Shown in pieces: positions 20,651 through 31,084 of a DNA stretch of 64,000 bases (position 1 is the stretch's first letter; each line of letters opens with the position of its first letter). The stretch spans positions 62,001 to 126,000 of the forward strand of contig JAAEEP010000002.1 of NCBI GenBank assembly GCA_013415695.1, in the 5' to 3' direction. A program made the translations under genes and the position numbers. This DNA comes from Methanomassiliicoccales archaeon (GTDB lineage Archaea > Thermoplasmatota > Thermoplasmata > Methanomassiliicoccales > JAAEEP01). Under the pieces are notes generated by a model. The model was not told the DNA's origin. It did not search any database and worked only from the letters and a program-made list of their open reading frames with translations.

Positions 20651-22690
20651 TCACTTCCTCATCAACAAGACCACAGCGGCGATCACTATCACCACGATCA
20701 CGATGATGATGATGGCCATGATCTCAATGGAGAGTCCACCATCACCACCTGCCTCCGAAATCTCGAAGTTGGCGGAGCTCATGCCGAAGACCTCGGGATC
20801 GTCAATGGCGACGATCTTGATCTTGAAGTCCTCTCCGGTGGCTTGACCCTCGCTGATGTTCCAGCTGAAACTACCATCGTTCGCGGTGGTAGCGGAAATT
20901 GTGGTGTTCAACGAACCGTCCTTGTACAGCTCGATCTTCACGTTCTCCACATCTCCGGTCGAGTTCCAGGTGATGTTGTGTATATCACCCTTCACCCAGT
21001 TCTCACCGCCATCTGGCGAGGTAACGGTGATGGTGGGCGGAATTATCGCATCGAAGCTGGCGTTGGCTGAATTCACGGTGTACCCGAAGGTGAACAGGCA
21101 CTCAACAGTGTAACTGCCCGCAACAGACGGTACATATTCGATGCTTGCCACACCACTGGCGTTGGTCGTCGCTTCCCCTATCTTATCGTCACCGATCCAG
21201 AAAGTGATGTTCTGACCGCCGATGGGGGTCTGATCGCTGATGGTGGCGCTGATCTCCACAGAATCGCCAACGGCGATCTCGCTCTCGCTCGCTTCCGCTT
21301 CGATGTCAACTACCCAGTTGAGAACGATGTCTGAAACCCCTTTTATTTTGAAGGATTTACTGGGCAGATCGCCCTCGAGCTTCAGAGGCGGGTACATGTC
21401 GGTAAGAGGTTCTTCGTCGAACATGTTCGCCACTATGATGTCATCATTCTCGTCCACTTCATCGAAGGTAAGAGTCTTGTTGAATCCATCTGCAGCGTAC
21501 ACGGTGATGGTGTAGTTCAGACCAGTGGCGTACTCGTGAGCTCCTATTGACTCGGGATCGTCAACGTAACCACATAGCCTCCATAGCGGAATGCCTGAGT
21601 AGTTACCGTAAACCTCATTGTGGCAGGCTGCTCCACTATCGAAGGTTGCGCGGTCCATCTCCATCCTGAAAGCTCCTGTCAGGTTGAGCTGATAATCGAC
21701 CACGCCCTGCAGAATGGTCATCGATGAAACCATCTTCGCCCATAAGTGTCCATCGGTCAGGGGGTCATCCTCGCCTATCAGGACGATTCTGGGCACTTCA
21801 TCCTCATCCATGGGCACTCCATTCATGTCGTAGGCAAGTACCATCTCCACGGAATCATTCCAAAGTATCTGGTCGTAGGTGTATGTCAAATTGTAGTAAC
21901 CATCTCTTGATTTGACCAACATCCCTTGACCCTCAGAAATCCCTCCAACGGCTTCCAGAAGATAGGTAACGTTTACACCGGTGTATGTGAATGGCCCTTC
22001 AATCGTACCTGATGATTTCTCGAAACTACCGTTAGCAGTATATGCAGTCATGTTCCTGATCATGAGGTCGCTGTACACAATGGACCAAGAATCATTCGTA
22101 AGAGTAACATTCCAGTTCGCTGTGTTTACAGTGATTGTCTGGACATACTTCGCCCACCTCTTACTTGCAGAGCTTGCCACCTCGTCCAGTGTTGTTGTCG
22201 CCGCACTATCGTTATTGTCATAAATCTCATCGTCGGGAAGGAATGCAATCAGAAGACCACTTGTCCAGGTTGGGACAAGGTCGCCCTCAAACTCGTATGC
22301 GAGTATCATATCTCCCTGGGTAGACGGATCGGGCCAAATATCGTACACATTGTTGTAGGAATATGTGGTGTTCCAATCATCCGAGGAAGTCACGGTTATG
22401 GTGTCACCGGGCTCCATTCCACCAACAAGTTCGACAAGGTCCGAGACCAAAACGCCGGTGTAGTTGCCCTCTCCGCCCCAGCCGACGCTCTTCTCGTACA
22501 TGCTCTTTCCTGAGACCGCGGTCATTGCTTGAAGCTCGCTAAGGCTCAGTGTTTCTGTACCAGTCTTCCCGATTATGTTAACCTCCACTGTGGTATCAGC
22601 AGCTACCGAAGTATTAGATAAGAAAGCTACTCCCAACACGGAGAACATGGAGAAGACTACTAGAAATGTCAGAATCTTTGTAAGATTCAT
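20651..22690 (-). CDS. Cell-surface protein with three SUOX-fold-like modules and C-terminal anchor
   Basis: 679 residues: signal peptide (to about 31), then three copies of a module resembling the sulfite-oxidase/molybdopterin-binding fold. Landmarks are NYTGVLVSDLVELVGGMEPGD at about 76, TYTGVNVTYLLEAVGG with SRDGYYNLTY at about 240-275, and YSGIPLWRLCGY with AADGFNKTL at about 365-410. An Ig-like domain (about 470-545) and a domain starting TSPDGGENWVKGD follow. The end is a Gly-rich spacer plus a hydrophobic helix and MRK tail, a typical archaeal membrane anchor. Many N-glycosylation sequons occur. SD AGGAGG precedes the ATG. No Moco-ligating Cys is evident, so a binding rather than catalytic role is likely. 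Confidence 0.75.
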   Translation of the reverse strand: MNLTKILTFLVVFSMFSVLGVAFLSNTSVAADTTVEVNIIGKTGTETLSLSELQAMTAVSGKSMYEKSVGWGGEGNYTGVLVSDLVELVGGMEPGDTITVTSSDDWNTTYSYNNVYDIWPDPSTQGDMILAYEFEGDLVPTWTSGLLIAFLPDDEIYDNNDSAATTTLDEVASSASKRWAKYVQTITVNTANWNVTLTNDSWSIVYSDLMIRNMTAYTANGSFEKSSGTIEGPFTYTGVNVTYLLEAVGGISEGQGMLVKSRDGYYNLTYTYDQILWNDSVEMVLAYDMNGVPMDEDEVPRIVLIGEDDPLTDGHLWAKMVSSMTILQGVVDYQLNLTGAFRMEMDRATFDSGAACHNEVYGNYSGIPLWRLCGYVDDPESIGAHEYATGLNYTITVYAADGFNKTLTFDEVDENDDIIVANMFDEEPLTDMYPPLKLEGDLPSKSFKIKGVSDIVLNWVVDIEAEASESEIAVGDSVEISATISDQTPIGGQNITFWIGDDKIGEATTNASGVASIEYVPSVAGSYTVECLFTFGYTVNSANASFDAIIPPTITVTSPDGGENWVKGDIHNITWNSTGDVENVKIELYKDGSLNTTISATTANDGSFSWNISEGQATGEDFKIKIVAIDDPEVFGMSSANFEISEAGGDGGLSIEIMAIIIIVIVVIVIAAVVLLMRK

Positions 22691-22722
22691 GGCTATCCTC
22701 CTAAGGGTTCAGAACTCGATAT

Positions 22723-22748
22723 GAATATAAAAACATAACGATTTTCGT
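22723..22748 (-). promoter_or_regulatory. TATA box and upstream Lrp-type site of surface protein gene
   Basis: On the minus strand TTTATATTCAT (22723-22733) is box A, giving transcription near 22702. Immediately upstream lies ACGATTTTCGT (22738-22748, read on plus), the 11-base core of the archaeal Lrp/Ptr2 consensus GGACGATTTTCGTCC. A site just upstream of the TATA/BRE is where Ptr2 acts as an activator. Confidence 0.5.
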
Positions 22749-22768: not shown

Positions 22769-24565
22769 CTACGAATAGCAAAGGACCTCGATGTATGCCA
22801 CGTATTTGACAAATCTTGCGCCCGCCGACAGGTATACGTTACCGCCCTGTCCCTTACAAGAGGTCGCAAGGCAATCCTCGTTACTATAGCCCTCGTCTTC
22901 AGGAAGGAAGGCGGTACGGAAACCCTCATCCCACTCGGGGGGCATCTCCCCCTCGAAGCTGTATGCCAGTATGAATGGGCCCTGAATCGAGAGCCAGGTG
23001 GAATTCGGATAGACGTTTCCGTAGCAGAAATCCTGGTAGTATCCATCAATGCTCTTCACACGGAGCGTGTCGTTCACATTCATTCCACCAACGAGTTCTA
23101 TTAGGTCCGCGATCAGCACGCCAGTGTAGTTACCTTTGTCTCTCCAGTTGCCGAAATTGTTCTCGTAAGAACTGTATCCTTCAACCGGGGTCATGGCGAG
23201 CAGGTCGCTCAGGTTCACGGTCACGCTACCATCGGGTCCGGAGATCAATATGGTCAGAGATTCTGGCTGCACCGGCTCGACCTCTACCACTTCCCAATTG
23301 ATCGAAGTTGGTGTCACCGTGAATACCAGGAAATGATAGAAACCACCATCATCCAGTGGAACGTAGAGGTTGCCCCCCGCACCACCGCTGATGAAGTAAT
23401 CGGTTCCGTTCCTGAAGGTGTGATTGAACATGTGGACATGTCCATTCAATACGATTTCCACATCATACTCGTCGACGATCGACTGGAATTCCTGACAATC
23501 ATTCGGATCGTCCAAATGGTGGTCCTCCCCCTCACGTGGATCGTAGGACGGAACGTGCGAGAAGATGATCGCCCTCATATCTGTCGACTGATCCAGCAGC
23601 TGTCTCAACCATGTGAACTGATCTTGAGTAATGTTCTGTGATGAAGAATCGATCGATATGAACCTGCAGTCGCCCCGATCGAAGTAGTAATCCCCTGTCT
23701 CAAAGTAATCGTAGAATATCGTATCGTTCGCCATCACATCGTGGTTGCCAGGGGTGACATGAAGATCGGCCTCGAGACCTTCAACATGGGAAACGAATGT
23801 GTCCAGCAACCCCTCGGTCGCTCTAGGGACCGTATCTCCAAGATGCAGAACGAATTCTATGCTGCGATTGTTCATTTCTTCGACAACCGCATCTAGCACC
23901 AGGTTGTTACCTTGAGAATCACCCATCACCGCGAAGGTGAATACCTGATCTCCCTTGGTGAGGACGAGGTTCTCGGCATTTCTCACCCAGCGCGATCCGG
24001 CTGAAAGGTAGACATGGCCGCCCTGTCCCTCGCAGGAGGTGTTCAGGCAGTCCTGATTGCTGTACTCCCCGTCATCAGGCATGAAGATGATCATGGGCCC
24101 CTCCTCCCATTCCGGAATCCGGGTCCCGTTGAACTCGTAGGCGAGGACCATATTGCCCTGGATTGATGGATCGGACCACTCGTTCATCACATTTCTCCAA
24201 CAGTAGGTCTGGTTGTATCCGTCTGTGGCGTAAACAGTGACATTGTCTCCCTCGGATATTCCCCCTATGAGATCAACCAGGTCGGATACGTTAACCCCTC
24301 GATAGATACCGTGCCCTCTCCAGTTGCCGAAGAAGTTCTGGTAAGAGGAGAACGCCTCTATGGATTCCATGGAAAGGAGATCATTCATAGTGATGTCGAC
24401 CTCACTTTCGGGATCACCTTCGACTGATAACGAGAAAACTGCATCACCTTCGTTTCCTTCGTTGGTCAGGTAGAGAAATGCTAGCGGTGAGATGATTACT
24501 AGAAGCACCACGATCAAGGCGGCTAGTGCCTTTCTATTGACCGCTTGTCCCCCAGCTTCAGGCAT
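22769..24565 (-). CDS. Membrane-anchored metallophosphoesterase flanked by two SUOX-fold-like modules
   Basis: 598 residues: N-terminal signal anchor (about 13-33), module 1 (about 50-198), calcineurin-type phosphoesterase (about 208-420), module 2 (about 436-598). Phosphoesterase ligands: GDSQ (D216), LGDTV (D244), GNHD (N274, H275), SHVP (H337), GHVH (H376, H378). The two modules are near duplicates: each has FGNWR, YxGV...DL..L.GG, DGYxQ, and ends with a DCLxTSCxGQGGxVYLSAG segment holding a Cys pair. It should act outside the cell. The message is leaderless: box A is about 25 bases before the ATG, within an operator-like repeat shared with the divergent ECF gene. The phosphorylated ligand is unknown. 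Confidence 0.8.
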   Translation of the reverse strand: MPEAGGQAVNRKALAALIVVLLVIISPLAFLYLTNEGNEGDAVFSLSVEGDPESEVDITMNDLLSMESIEAFSSYQNFFGNWRGHGIYRGVNVSDLVDLIGGISEGDNVTVYATDGYNQTYCWRNVMNEWSDPSIQGNMVLAYEFNGTRIPEWEEGPMIIFMPDDGEYSNQDCLNTSCEGQGGHVYLSAGSRWVRNAENLVLTKGDQVFTFAVMGDSQGNNLVLDAVVEEMNNRSIEFVLHLGDTVPRATEGLLDTFVSHVEGLEADLHVTPGNHDVMANDTIFYDYFETGDYYFDRGDCRFISIDSSSQNITQDQFTWLRQLLDQSTDMRAIIFSHVPSYDPREGEDHHLDDPNDCQEFQSIVDEYDVEIVLNGHVHMFNHTFRNGTDYFISGGAGGNLYVPLDDGGFYHFLVFTVTPTSINWEVVEVEPVQPESLTILISGPDGSVTVNLSDLLAMTPVEGYSSYENNFGNWRDKGNYTGVLIADLIELVGGMNVNDTLRVKSIDGYYQDFCYGNVYPNSTWLSIQGPFILAYSFEGEMPPEWDEGFRTAFLPEDEGYSNEDCLATSCKGQGGNVYLSAGARFVKYVAYIEVLCYS

Positions 24566-24572
24566 GGAATTT

Positions 24573-24612
24573 AAGTTAACCGATATGTATATTTATGCCT
24601 ATCGCTTAACTT
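24573..24612. promoter_or_regulatory. Divergent promoter enclosed by 13-base inverted repeat
   Basis: AAGTTAACCGATA (24573-24585) and TATCGCTTAACTT (24600-24612) are inverted copies matching at 12 of 13 positions, around a 14-base core TGTATATTTATGCC that provides TATA elements in both directions. The two start codons lie only 56 bases apart, at 24565 and 24622, each about 26 bases from the TATA core. The repeat is well placed to control both the phosphoesterase and the ECF importer. Confidence 0.65.
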
Positions 24613-24621
24613 GGGAATGGG

Positions 24622-25647
24622 ATGAAGGACCGCTTCTATTTCAGCACCAGGGACCTGGTCACCATCGCTATTCTGAGCGCGCTAGGAGGTGTGCTCAGCA
24701 CGTACATAGGGTACCTTGGCAATCTTATCAACACCACTTTGGGTGTCCCATTCGGTGCTGGGCAGATCATGGCAGGCCTTCACATATTCTGGATGATTGT
24801 TGCCTATGCCATAATCCCCCGGTTCGGTACCGGCACCCTGGTGGGATTGCTGAAGGGAACCGTTGAGCTCTTCGCAGGAAGTGCCCACGGAGTCCCGATA
24901 GTCCTGGTGTCCCTGGTGGAGGGAATACTTGTCGACATGACATTCGCGGTCTTCAGAAAGCCGACAACTGTTTCGTTTGTGTGCGCAGGTGCGTTGGCAT
25001 CAGCGAGCAATGTTTTCGTCTTTCAAGCGCTGTACTTCGCTTCTGTGCCCTTCACCTATATACTACTTATCGCGGCGATGGCTGCCATATCTGGAGCGGT
25101 CTTCGCTGGTTACTTTGGACAGGGGGCCTACCAGATACTGGTCGAATCCGGTATCGTGAAGGTCAAGGGTGAGAAACCGGTTTTCAAGAAACTCACAGTG
25201 CAGAAGGCTTTTACGATTGCTGTAGCGGTAGCTCTCATCGGCGGGGCGGTCATCTACTTTACCGTGGTTTACAAACCCTTCATGGATCCTCTGACTTGTG
25301 ATGTGGACGGTAATGTGGAGAGCCCCTTCGTCTACCGACCGGCCGACTTCGCAGATTACGAGGTGACGATAACCGCGGAGCTCATCGGTGAGTACACATA
25401 TGTCCCCCCAACTGAGTACACGGGGGTACCATTGCACATCATCCTTGAACGGGCAAATCCCAATAGTGGCGCATCCAACATAAAGGTCATAGCCTCAGAT
25501 GGATACGAAGCGAGGTTCGATTACACAGACGTGATGGAAGATGTGAACCTCATCCTCATTCAGGAGGATGGCAGGTTACGCCTCATAGCCGGAGAATATG
25601 AAGGTCAGTACTGGGTGAAAAAGGTCTCCGAGATAAGGGTGTCGTAG
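24622..25647 (+). CDS. ECF transporter S component (YkoE-like) with extracellular SUOX-fold-like domain
   Basis: 341 residues. The first ~185 form a six-helix substrate-binding membrane domain resembling YkoE (start FYFSTRDLVTIAILSALGG; then GTGTLVGLLKGTVELFAGSAHG and VEGILVDMTFAVF), the S component of the thiamine-precursor importer YkoEDC. After a further helix (about 192-215) an outer domain (about 225-341) carries YTGVPLHIILERA, VIASDGYEARFDY and WVKKVSEIRV, the same module as in the two divergent surface proteins. A normal S component stops after the membrane domain, so the fusion is unusual. The ATG at 24622 fits a leaderless start. The ATPase and T-component genes follow in the same operon. 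Confidence 0.82.
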   Translation: MKDRFYFSTRDLVTIAILSALGGVLSTYIGYLGNLINTTLGVPFGAGQIMAGLHIFWMIVAYAIIPRFGTGTLVGLLKGTVELFAGSAHGVPIVLVSLVEGILVDMTFAVFRKPTTVSFVCAGALASASNVFVFQALYFASVPFTYILLIAAMAAISGAVFAGYFGQGAYQILVESGIVKVKGEKPVFKKLTVQKAFTIAVAVALIGGAVIYFTVVYKPFMDPLTCDVDGNVESPFVYRPADFADYEVTITAELIGEYTYVPPTEYTGVPLHIILERANPNSGASNIKVIASDGYEARFDYTDVMEDVNLILIQEDGRLRLIAGEYEGQYWVKKVSEIRVS

Positions 25648-27999: not shown

Positions 28000-28761
28000 A
28001 TGAACACGCTGGAGAAGACCATGACTGATCTCCTGGGAAGGGGAATCGATGTCACGCACGTCTCAGAGATGCCCCTGAATGCTCCCGTCCTCGAGGTCTT
28101 AAGATTGACCAGCAGGAAGAATGCCGTTTACTTGATCAAGACCCCCGATAGGGAGCTGGTCCTCAAGGTCTTCGAGAACGATAGGTGGGAAAGAGAGCAA
28201 ACCATCCTACTTTCATGCCAGTCCAGGGGAGTCCTGGCCCCCAAGCCCCTCCTCATGGGTGAGGGGTTCATCGTCATGGATTATCTAAAGGGTCCCAACC
28301 TCTGTGACCTGGTCAACGAGACACTGGACCCGGTCTATCCCAGGATGATCGCCAGGTGGCTGGCCGACTTTCATGGAAACCTTGGAGATGAGGAGGTAAC
28401 CCTCGTCAAGTCTGATGCAAAGCTCCAGAACTTCATCCTGACCGAGCGAGGTGTGGCGGGACTGGACTTTGAGCTGGCCCATGAGGGGGACCCGTTAGAG
28501 GACCTGGGCGAGGTCTGTGCCCATATACTCAACACCGATCCCATGTTCATCGAGGAAAAGTATGCACTTTGCGACCAATTCCTCCGGTGCTACCTGTCGA
28601 TCACCGATCACTCGTTGGAGGGCATCACTTACTGGGTGGTCTCGGCTCTCAAGGAGGCCGCTCACTTCAGGCCCGATCAGCGGGAGAGGCTAGAAAAGGA
28701 GATTGAGGAACTCGATAGAGGAGAGGTTTGGCCATTTTATCATCACGATCAGAAAAGGTGA
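28000..28761 (+). CDS. Protein-kinase-like small-molecule phosphotransferase
   Basis: 253 residues of the aminoglycoside/choline-kinase-like fold: nucleotide Lys in ELVLKVFE, a hinge-like IVMDYLKGPNL, catalytic-loop equivalent KSDAKLQNFIL (Asp and Asn), and metal-binding LDFELAHEGDPLEDLG. It is soluble. As last gene of the ECF operon it may phosphorylate the imported compound, as thiamine or other vitamin kinases do; ThiK-type kinases belong to this fold. An alternative is a protein-kinase-like regulator of the transporter. Its 3' end overlaps the convergent mevalonate-pathway gene by 13 bases. Confidence 0.75.
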   Translation: MNTLEKTMTDLLGRGIDVTHVSEMPLNAPVLEVLRLTSRKNAVYLIKTPDRELVLKVFENDRWEREQTILLSCQSRGVLAPKPLLMGEGFIVMDYLKGPNLCDLVNETLDPVYPRMIARWLADFHGNLGDEEVTLVKSDAKLQNFILTERGVAGLDFELAHEGDPLEDLGEVCAHILNTDPMFIEEKYALCDQFLRCYLSITDHSLEGITYWVVSALKEAAHFRPDQRERLEKEIEELDRGEVWPFYHHDQKR

Positions 28762-29708
28762 TCATCGGTCAGCGCGGCCTCTCCACCAACCGTGCAGGCC
28801 AGCGTCTTGATTCCAAGTGATCCGATCCTGGACCTGACCTCTTCGAGATCGTGAGTTCTCGTGTTGATGTAGACCGTGGCACCAGTGTCAATTGAGAAGT
28901 AGCACTTGACCCCCTCTTCGAACATCCTCTTGACCTCCAATATCACCCTCAGGGTGTCGGGTCTCCAGAGAATGAGCCTCTCATCACCAGTCATGGTAAT
29001 TCCGTGGAGGAGCAGCGTGTCCCTTTCGGCCAGTTCTCCGATGCCATTCACATCGCCCCTGCCGATAGCCTGTTCCATCTCGTCCAGCACGGAGGGCATG
29101 TACTCCAGGCGTGCCTTGAAGAAGGGCGAGCTGGTGACCTCGCGGTGGGCGGTGTCCGTGAACTTCATCGCTGGGACCACCGCCACCAGCATGGCCATGT
29201 GCGAATCTGCAGGAGAAGATATCCTTCGCGAAAAGGAACTCTCATCGTCATGGCCGGCGTACCATCGGGAGAATCCCCCGGTCACAGCCCGGGAGGCGGA
29301 GCCCGCTCCTCTCCTTGCGAATCTTGAGATCTCTTCCAGGGTGAGATCAAGGCCCAACGCGTCCGAGCAGGCGAGGGCGAGGGCAGCGAACCCAGAGGAG
29401 CTTGCGCCCAGTCCGATGTTCGAGGGAAAGTCGTTGATGGATGCCATCCTCATCCCCTTATCGATGCCAGCCATCTCCCTTATGGGCTCCACAACTGCGA
29501 GTATCCTCTCCAATTCTCTCTCGCCCGCCGATTTTCCGTCAATTTCCGCGCAATCGGGCCATCTCCCAAAATCCACCGTGGTCCGGGTGCAGAGGGGGGC
29601 AGTGCAGACGGAAATGGAATCATGATAGGGCAGCCTGAGGACCTCGTCTTTCAGGCCATGATATTTTATCAGTCCCTGTATGGGGTGCGCGGTGGCGCTG
29701 GACTTCAT
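28749..29708 (-). CDS. mvaD: Mevalonate-pathway decarboxylase (phosphomevalonate type)
   Basis: 319 residues of the GHMP-fold diphosphomevalonate decarboxylase family. The N-terminal pattern HPIQGLIKYHGLKDE.LRLPYHDSISV closely resembles what I recall of the haloarchaeal phosphomevalonate decarboxylase. The ATP loop is PSNIGLGASSSGFAALA, the Arg in GSASRAVTGGF, and the catalytic Asp in FSIDTGATVY; all residues needed for decarboxylation are kept. It acts in isoprenoid precursor synthesis for archaeal lipids. Thermoplasma relatives of this family act on mevalonate or its 3,5-bisphosphate, so the exact substrate is open. Archease precedes it by eight bases. Confidence 0.88.
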   Translation of the reverse strand: MKSSATAHPIQGLIKYHGLKDEVLRLPYHDSISVCTAPLCTRTTVDFGRWPDCAEIDGKSAGERELERILAVVEPIREMAGIDKGMRMASINDFPSNIGLGASSSGFAALALACSDALGLDLTLEEISRFARRGAGSASRAVTGGFSRWYAGHDDESSFSRRISSPADSHMAMLVAVVPAMKFTDTAHREVTSSPFFKARLEYMPSVLDEMEQAIGRGDVNGIGELAERDTLLLHGITMTGDERLILWRPDTLRVILEVKRMFEEGVKCYFSIDTGATVYINTRTHDLEEVRSRIGSLGIKTLACTVGGEAALTDDHLF

Positions 29709-29716
29709 GGTTCACC

Positions 29717-30121
29717 TCATATGTCGAACAGCACGGTCACCGAAGGCGTGTCCTTGTCGACATTAAGCATGTGGTATGTCACTGCCTTGATCTCGGTCTT
29801 TGGTCTGTGCTTCTTCAGATCGAGCTCCTCTCCCTTGGCCAGGCAGCTAAGGCCTTCCTCCGAGAAGGAGACGTCGAAGGAGGAGAGCACCACATGTTCA
29901 ACATCATGGAGGTATAAGAGCTCGGAAAGAAGGTCGAACAGAAGCTCTTCCTTCTCGTCGCCCTCGATCTTCACCTCCACCTCTCCAATTGGCTGGATAG
30001 TAGAGACATCTACTATCTGATCGAACATAGCCAGTGCGGCGTTGGCGAAGCATTCCTCAAGCGTGTTTCCGTATGCTCTAACCAGAATGTCGGCGGTGTG
30101 GTCAAGAAGCTCGAATCTCAT
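29717..30121 (-). CDS. Archease, RtcB ligase cofactor
   Basis: 134 residues with the archease pattern: FELLDHTADILVRAYG at the N-terminus and conserved acidic residues, LLFDLLSELLYLHD in the middle, and KAVTYHMLNVD near the C-terminus (His and Asp used for metal). Archease activates the tRNA-splicing ligase RtcB. Size is normal. A minus-strand box A (ATTTTTATCC, about 30143-30152) is about 26 bases before the ATG, implying a leaderless message. The mevalonate-pathway gene follows in the same direction. Confidence 0.95.
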   Translation of the reverse strand: MRFELLDHTADILVRAYGNTLEECFANAALAMFDQIVDVSTIQPIGEVEVKIEGDEKEELLFDLLSELLYLHDVEHVVLSSFDVSFSEEGLSCLAKGEELDLKKHRPKTEIKAVTYHMLNVDKDTPSVTVLFDI

Positions 30122-30168
30122 CGTTCTTGGATTGCATGACAGGATAAAAATTGTTGTGCAGCGGTTCG

Positions 30169-30180
30169 AAATTCGAATTT
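30169..30180. promoter_or_regulatory. Perfect palindrome between archease and nadX
   Basis: AAATTCGAATTT is a perfect 12-base palindrome in the 144-base divergent region, about 86 bases from the nadX ATG and 48 from the archease ATG. The preceding TTCGAA gives an overlapping second copy of the core. Possible regulator site; chance is not excluded in AT-rich DNA. Confidence 0.3.
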
Positions 30181-30265
30181 TCCAGGTAATCTACGCTTTA
30201 AAGCTCCCTTAGAACACTCTGATTTTCAATAGTGTTATATTGCCGTTGTATATTCTCTCGGTACA

Positions 30266-31084
30266 ATGCGAATCCTGATAATTGGGTGCGGTTCCATCGG
30301 CACTCAGATAGCAAGGGCCGTTGACGAGATGGAGGAGTTCGACAAGGTGTACATCACTGATCAAAGCCACATGTGCGCTGTCCACCTTCAAAGGATCCTT
30401 CGGAACGTGGAGTACGTCGAGCACGACGACGAAACGATGAACAATCTAGCCAAGGAACTTGACCTGGTGGTCGAGGCAGCCAGCCAGGCGGCGGCAAGAC
30501 ACTACGCCCCCTTTTTCTTGGGGCGCGGAGTCGATACCATGGTCATGAGTGTGGGGGTCTTTGCGGATGATGAACTCCGGGAGAGGTGCTTCAATCTTTC
30601 CAAGGAGAAGAACGCAAGACTCTACGTCCCATCAGGAGCGGTGTGCGGTACGGATGGTCTTCGAGCGGCATCGATAGGTCGCATCGATGAGGTCACGCTC
30701 ATTACCAGGAAGGGCAGGAAGGGCATGTGCGAAGAGTCCAAGCTTAGGGAGAGAGGTGTTTCAATGGAGTCTCTCGCTGAGCCCTGTGTAATCTTCGAGG
30801 GAACGGCGAGAGAGGCTGCTCTTGCCTTTCCCAGGAACATGAACGTATCGGGCACGCTCAGCCTCCTTGGTGTAGGGTTTGACGACACCAGGGTGAAGAT
30901 AATATGTGATCCAGATATTGAGAGCAACCAACATACTGTGATCGTGAAGGGAGAATTCGGTGAGTTGAGAGCCGAGACCAAGAATGTTCCTTCTCCAAAG
31001 ACCCCATCCACGAGCTTTCTCGCAGCACTATCCGCGGTGGCGGCCATCAAGCGGATCGCGTCCAACATTTGGATAGGAATCTGA
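30266..31084 (+). CDS. nadX: L-aspartate dehydrogenase
   Basis: 272 residues. N-terminal NAD(P) motif ILIIGCGSIGTQIARAV, a central segment VVEAASQAAARHYAP with the family pattern, SVGVFADDEL, YVPSGAVCGTDGLRAA, and a C-terminal PKTPSTSFLAALSAVAAI are characteristic of aspartate dehydrogenase. The enzyme makes iminoaspartate for NAD synthesis in archaea lacking NadB. Box A GTTATATTG (about 30234-30242) sits about 26 bases before the ATG, so the message is leaderless. An M24 peptidase gene follows on the same strand after 54 bases with its own AT-rich upstream region. Confidence 0.93.
   Translation: MRILIIGCGSIGTQIARAVDEMEEFDKVYITDQSHMCAVHLQRILRNVEYVEHDDETMNNLAKELDLVVEAASQAAARHYAPFFLGRGVDTMVMSVGVFADDELRERCFNLSKEKNARLYVPSGAVCGTDGLRAASIGRIDEVTLITRKGRKGMCEESKLRERGVSMESLAEPCVIFEGTAREAALAFPRNMNVSGTLSLLGVGFDDTRVKIICDPDIESNQHTVIVKGEFGELRAETKNVPSPKTPSTSFLAALSAVAAIKRIASNIWIGI

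Follow-up and report, generated by a model that had tools for sequence, protein, structure and literature searches.

Gene organization at the divergent locus

Within the window (the whole 64,000-nucleotide stretch of DNA that was analysed), two genes for surface proteins on one strand face genes for an ECF importer and a kinase on the other, across a 56-bp spacer (24566-24621) that carries an inverted repeat (Table 1). The ECF importer is complete, with its S component, T component (CbiQ) and ECF ATPases encoded together, and the C-terminal Oxidored_molyb-like match of the S component has 23.9 bits, just below the model cut-off of 24. The phosphoesterase profile of the first surface protein gives matches to phosphodiesterases of the GpdQ/Rv0805 type and to purple acid phosphatases. 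Beside the cassette, at 28749-31084, GHMP-kinase-like, archease-like and aspartate-dehydrogenase-like genes were recognized by eye.

Table 1. Positions of the cassette genes and of the promoter and operator elements in the window (a point marks features without a strand).
Feature	Position	Strand	Remark
Second surface protein, 679 aa, Oxidored_molyb-like and Ig-like domains	20651..22690	-	
Second operator copy CGATATGAATATAAAAACATAACG	22717..22740	.	26 nt before the second surface-protein gene start; score 19.7
Surface protein, 598 aa, calcineurin-like phosphoesterase and Oxidored_molyb-like (sulfite-oxidase-like) domains	22769..24565	-	
Inverted repeat	24573..24612	.	13-nt arms, 12/13; extendable to 19-nt arms
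Outer half AAGTTAA	24573..24579	+	Partner at 24606-24612; absent from other operators
Palindromic core CGATATGTATATTTATGCCTATCG	24581..24604	.	Putative ModE-type operator common to both divergent promoters
Shared TATA element TATATTTA / TAAATATA	24588..24595	.	Distance to both ATGs fits the genome-wide pattern
ECF S component, 341 aa, YkoE-type membrane part and C-terminal Oxidored_molyb-like domain	24622..25647	+	PF09819
Double ECF ATPase, 508 aa	25655..27181	+	
ECF T component (CbiQ type), 274 aa	27165..27989	+	
APH/Bud32-like kinase, 253 aa	28000..28761	+	

Among 400 genomes of the class, the S component is present in 24 genomes besides the present one, and in none of 60 genomes of the same order. 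In all 20 class loci that were retrieved, the S component is immediately preceded, on its own strand, by an ORF matching the phosphoesterase and/or the second surface protein, and these genes are thus linked even without a divergent promoter. The tie between surface phosphoesterase and ECF importer, which an earlier sequence-only reading of this DNA had proposed, is therefore real. The divergent layout itself occurs in none of the 20 loci and was seen in this genome alone, and a kinase homologue flanks the cassette in 16 class loci, in the opposite direction. Five loci of bacterial (Bipolaricaulota) metagenome-assembled genomes (L003-L007) also carry this fused S component, at 43-54% identity, which suggests a transfer between bacteria and archaea.

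An inverted repeat around a probable shared promoter

The 13-base inverted repeat between the divergent genes is present as the earlier reading had it: the left arm AAGTTAACCGATA (24573-24585) and the right arm TATCGCTTAACTT (24600-24612) are complementary at 12 of 13 positions around a loop of 14. A repeat finder lengthens the ungapped arms to 19 nt, of which 16 (84%) are complementary, with 2 nt in between. When the 56-bp spacer was shuffled with its dinucleotides preserved, a 12/13 repeat (with any loop of 0-30) appeared in 4 of 5000 shuffles and a 16/19 repeat in 0 of 5000. Across the whole 64-kb window, four such repeats are listed, although two of these are a single repeat read in different registers; 60 shuffles gave 1.6 on average. 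Such repeats are thus not rare window-wide, and it is the location in a short divergent spacer that makes this one unusual.

The minus-strand ATG at 24565 and the plus-strand ATG at 24622 are 57 bp apart, and one TATA element is common to both genes, so that the core promoter is shared, as had been claimed. The distance of about 26 bases given for both start codons holds for the minus-strand ATG (26.5 from the centre of the TATA element) and is slightly short for the plus-strand ATG (30.5). In this genome the A+T content upstream of the ATG reaches its maximum at -32 to -27 (121 gene starts), and the listed TATA hexamers, present in 35 of 225 upstream regions, lie mostly at -31 to -29. From these genome-wide positions, both divergent messages are probably leaderless or nearly so, in agreement with the earlier proposal. 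An 18-column promoter matrix built by expectation maximization was too weak for use, and ranked the window promoters under most others.

In Pyrococcus furiosus, BRE-TATA-BRE promoters have been described that fire in both directions from starts 49-50 bp apart (PMC6640164). The present site resembles them in having one TATA element with inverted flanks and, judged from the ATGs, predicted divergent starts about 50 bp apart; the P. furiosus case concerns antisense transcripts, whereas here two protein genes share the promoter and an operator lies on top of it. With the ATGs 57 bp apart around one TATA element, the palindrome could be a mere footprint of overlapping core promoters to which no regulator binds. 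This reading is quite improbable, since the 24-bp motif described below precedes the cassette in all 16 relatives examined, whose promoters are not divergent, and also occurs in an aldehyde ferredoxin oxidoreductase (AOR) promoter of the present genome.

The 24-bp core is the conserved unit

On comparison with other genomes, the conserved unit is the 24-bp core, not the 13-base arm. In the search for further copies that the sequence-only reading had called for, the arms define no regulon, because AAGTTAASCGATA at up to two mismatches gives 44 matches in the genome against 60 for the reversed control pattern; the sole other match with one mismatch (C1:26332) falls in what, by eye, seems to be a coding region. 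The 24-bp core, on the other hand, does recur. It is two mismatches away from the pattern CGNTATGC-N8-GCATANCG, and in the relatives CGATATGCTCAATTGAGCATAACG or a near copy of it is located upstream of the surface-protein gene.

The relatives were tabulated where the surface-protein gene was available with its 5′ end, which was the case for 16 of the 24 other cassette genomes (G077, G103, G123, G129, G136, G147, G169 and G194 were left out, and G182 is represented by its copy on contig C54). In all 16 of these distant relatives, the motif was found at up to two mismatches before the surface-protein gene, the next-best matches having 5-6 mismatches, and in 15 a plausible start codon is no more than about 25 nt away, the contig of the sixteenth ending too early to show one. 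Counted by genome, the pattern CGNTATGC-N8-GCATANCG occurs at up to two mismatches in all 25 cassette genomes, but a control pattern also matches in most of them, and in G103 the control gives more matches than the pattern itself. In the five Bipolaricaulota loci the operator was not found at up to three mismatches (L007 has one match at four), in a scan whose pattern had W at places that were later relaxed to N.

A scoring matrix built from the 16 relatives alone was scanned over 506 kb (25%) of the present genome. It picks four sites, namely C5:92778 (24.9), window 22717 (19.7), C7:30853 (19.5) and window 24581 (17.9), and the score then drops to 11.4 for the fifth. In 20 simulated genomes the top scores ranged from 10.7 to 18.9, and one of the 20 exceeded the divergent site at 24581, which is the weakest of the four and the fourth-best in the 506 kb. 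Its score alone is thus within reach of chance, and it is convincing because it is placed at the cassette promoter. Taken with its position over both promoters, the sequence evidence makes it very probable that 24581-24604 is an operator shared by the two divergent genes. The sequence-only reading overlooked the second operator at 22717-22740, the Mo/W (ModE-like) character of the divergent site and the link to cofactor metabolism. Its proposal of one regulator for two messages holds, in that a single bound regulator, as judged from the sequence, would span both directions.

The targets of the recurring sites point to molybdenum and tungsten. In the present genome, C7:30853 is located at the promoter of an AOR-family gene (AFOR_N and AFOR_C domains), and in G154 a site lies 8 nt before the solute-binding protein gene of an ABC operon that has a TOBE-domain ATPase and adjoins moeA. 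From its sequence motif, we take this operon to be a tungstate/molybdate (Wtp-type) system. For the strongest site of the present genome, C5:92778, which is flanked by convergent genes, no target is obvious. This site (C5:92778-92801, or L135:4779-4802) follows an AT-rich, TATA-like stretch by about 15 nt, has no ORF of at least 70 aa starting downstream and has no Rfam match; its target is perhaps a small RNA or a short ORF.

The outer halves of the repeat have to be considered apart from the core. They pair at 7 of 8 positions, which was equalled by 38 of 200,000 flank shuffles and is thus above chance. They could stem from an inverted duplication of the promoter, or form a second protein dimer site, so that the repeat would be partly historical, and the occurrence of the divergent layout in none of the 20 relatives' loci is in keeping with such an origin. 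At their spacing of 26 nt, the halves have no second full copy in the genome at 0-1 mismatches, and with the S component in none of the 60 same-order genomes there is no close relative by which to date the event. We consider both of these readings of the outer halves unlikely.

Likeness to ModE operators and a candidate regulator

For the E. coli regulator ModE, the operator consensus has been given as ATCGNTATATA-N6-TATATANCGAT (PMC545781). Against the 28-mer consensus, the window sites match at 14 of 20 letters (24581) and at 15 of 20 letters, and only four positions in the window score at least 14. When compared with CGNTATATA-N6-TATATANCG at 24-bp spacing, the core has equal length and the same outer letters. 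The resemblance to the E. coli operator thus comprises a 24-bp palindrome, CGNTAT...ATANCG ends, target genes related to Mo/W and the presence of a ModE-type HTH protein in the genome. The differences are that the inner letters are TATGC here instead of TATATA, and that the targets here, unlike those of the E. coli regulon, include an ECF importer.

We have searched the 25 cassette genomes for the ModE-type HTH. In the present genome, the best match is a protein of 246 aa (L150:5884-6624), with 82 bits against a curated TIGR00637 cut-off of 98.5. Matches with E values up to 1e-8 are found in 23 of the 25 genomes (none in G129 and G169), and none of the 25 passes the curated cut-off. The second domain of the protein is a Nudix domain whose Nudix box looks intact, and this domain is present in 23 of 24 aligned proteins, the exception being the second copy in G154 (115 aa). 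A profile of the family aligns in two parts, residues 7-104 with the solved structure of E. coli ModE (E 3.8e-15) and the remainder with Nudix structures. Where ModE has its C-terminal molybdate-binding (MOP/TOBE) domain, this protein has the Nudix domain instead, and for that reason it does not strictly count as a ModE.

A DNA-binding domain joined to a Nudix domain is also the arrangement of the Nudix-type regulators such as NrtR and AraR. The present protein differs from them in that its HTH is of the ModE type and N-terminal, and we know of no name for this fusion, which is conserved across 23 genomes. From its domains and its distribution, the ModE-HTH/Nudix protein is likely to be the regulator that binds the operator, and the joint assignment of operator and regulator is, on the same evidence, a likely one as well. 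In G109, a MarR-type gene ends 14 nt before the cassette operator, and a similar-looking ORF occupies the same place in G087 (ORFs L137:4191-4631 and L140:4683-5129, with a Pfam match for L137 only); this MarR-type protein may act as an additional regulator in that family.

The S component has a predicted PruR-like fold

The profile of the S component has a match to YkoE (5edl, E 1.7e-11) and a weak one to a sulfite dehydrogenase (E 0.006). Using its AlphaFold model (mean pLDDT 83), Foldseek retrieved enzymes of the sulfite oxidase family, YedY, YkoE and pterin-binding proteins of the PruR type, one of which had been solved with neopterin. In an alignment of 24 S components, no column has cysteine in half or more of the rows, and a Mo-ligating cysteine is therefore not seen. 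PruR is described as having a sulfite-oxidase fold without the Mo-ligating cysteine and as binding pterins in the periplasm, with a pocket thought to be too small for Moco (PMC13259868). The present domain resembles PruR in the fold match, in the lack of a mostly-cysteine column and in its predicted location outside the cytoplasm. It differs in being fused to an importer, PruR signalling to DcpA instead (PMC13259868). The size of the PruR pocket favours cPMP or another small pterin as the ligand.

The importer as a whole is built like the YkoEDC importer of HMP/thiamine, having a YkoE-type S component, a double ATPase and a T component. Unlike YkoEDC, it has an extra extracellular sulfite-oxidase-like domain, surface phosphoesterase partners and a Mo/W-type operator, and no riboswitch is present in the window, where Rfam found a tRNA only.

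The cassette accompanies AOR and is nearly exclusive of MoaC

The counts for cassette, MoaC and AOR are treated as one set of 400 genomes drawn from the class, with genome labels that agree; MoaC is present in 218 and AOR in 124. The cassette was found in 25 AOR-bearing genomes and in none of the 276 that lack AOR. MoaC is missing from 24 of the 25 cassette genomes, including the present genome, which is 99.6% complete. It occurs in 1 of 25 genomes with the cassette against 217 of 375 others (Fisher p 3.8e-8, relatedness ignored), and among AOR-bearing genomes alone in 1 of 25 with the cassette against 79 of 99 without it (p 1.4e-12, relatedness ignored); these p values are inflated by relatedness, several genomes are incomplete, and MoaC is the single molybdopterin-pathway enzyme surveyed.

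The exchange is also seen within genera. In genus g58, G103 and G123 have the cassette without MoaC, and G116, G130 and G142 have MoaC without the cassette. In genus g30, G182 (cassette, no MoaC) stands against G062, G075, G164 and G190 (MoaC, no cassette). G154 carries both. A further 20 AOR-bearing genomes carry neither (G061, G080, G090, G098, G101, G106, G112, G119, G126, G132, G144, G148, G150, G153, G156, G178, G200, G313, G382 and G398); incomplete assemblies, another salvage route or cofactor-free AOR homologues are the alternatives here.

These distributions bear on what the importer carries. Ordinary salvage of HMP/thiamine by a YkoE-type importer, with the phosphoesterase removing phosphate from thiamine phosphates outside and the kinase restoring it inside, would account for the YkoE match and for a weak match of the kinase to thiamine kinase, far under the cut-off. 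The operator targets are Mo/W genes, though, and the co-occurrence with AOR is strict; of thiamine-type regulation, neither a THI riboswitch in the window nor ThiR was seen, the genome's only ThiN match lying within a 457-aa frame. Thiamine salvage is thus very improbable. That the regulon is correctly recognized and the importer, controlled by a ModE-like regulator, takes up the oxyanion itself (molybdate or tungstate) is somewhat less remote, since ModE-type operators are known at molybdate transport genes (PMC545781) and a site precedes the Mo/W-type ABC operon in G154. Import of the oxyanion would give no reason for the near-exclusion of MoaC, and the YkoE-like S component has a fold that in PruR binds pterins; we therefore regard it as unlikely.

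Discussion

Taken together, it is well supported by the sequence comparisons that the palindrome is a conserved ModE-type operator, shared by genes that belong together and placed on a probable bidirectional promoter; that it serves a Mo/W-cofactor regulon is likely. A single TATA element, flanked by BRE-like sequences, would drive the leaderless or near-leaderless messages of the phosphoesterase (minus) and of the ECF importer (plus), and a dimeric repressor bound at 24581-24604 would mask this element and block TBP/TFB both ways. The presumed ModE-HTH/Nudix repressor (L150:5884-6624) may sense the cofactor or its dinucleotide form, and would leave the site when the Mo/W-pterin cofactor is short, so that the putative surface pterin-binding proteins, the phosphoesterase, the importer and an AOR are switched on. 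The palindrome, the conservation of its motif, the regulon members, the co-occurrences and the folds are read from sequence, and DNA binding, repression instead of activation, the ligand sensed and the substrate carried are what we infer.

The derepressed cassette would then salvage a pterin of the molybdopterin pathway, which the cell probably cannot make because MoaC is missing. The surface proteins with the sulfite-oxidase fold and the extracellular domain of the S component would catch the pterin, the phosphoesterase would remove its phosphate or open its cyclic phosphate, the YkoE-type ECF importer would bring it in and the APH-type kinase would re-phosphorylate it. On the gene content and the distribution, we give this salvage function about an even chance. 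The wider proposal, that prokaryotes have in this cassette a dedicated means of importing cPMP, MPT or Moco, which replaces de novo synthesis in AOR-using archaea, is equally balanced between being right and wrong.

Among the papers listed on uptake, transport and salvage of molybdopterin or Moco, we have found no prokaryotic importer of this kind; some T11SS proteins have been suggested to act in molybdopterin uptake (PMC12282271). A survey has listed 5 archaea and 305 bacteria that have Moco-dependent enzymes without a Moco pathway, with the caveat that gaps in the sequencing may account for part of this (PMC6147048). For Moco enzymes without the pathway, an import cassette that is regulated and takes the place of moaC in some members of a genus would be a testable answer. 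The ModE-Nudix regulator would add a new type of sensor to those of Mo/W regulons, and at the divergent site a single operator would clearly shut an archaeal bidirectional promoter in both directions.
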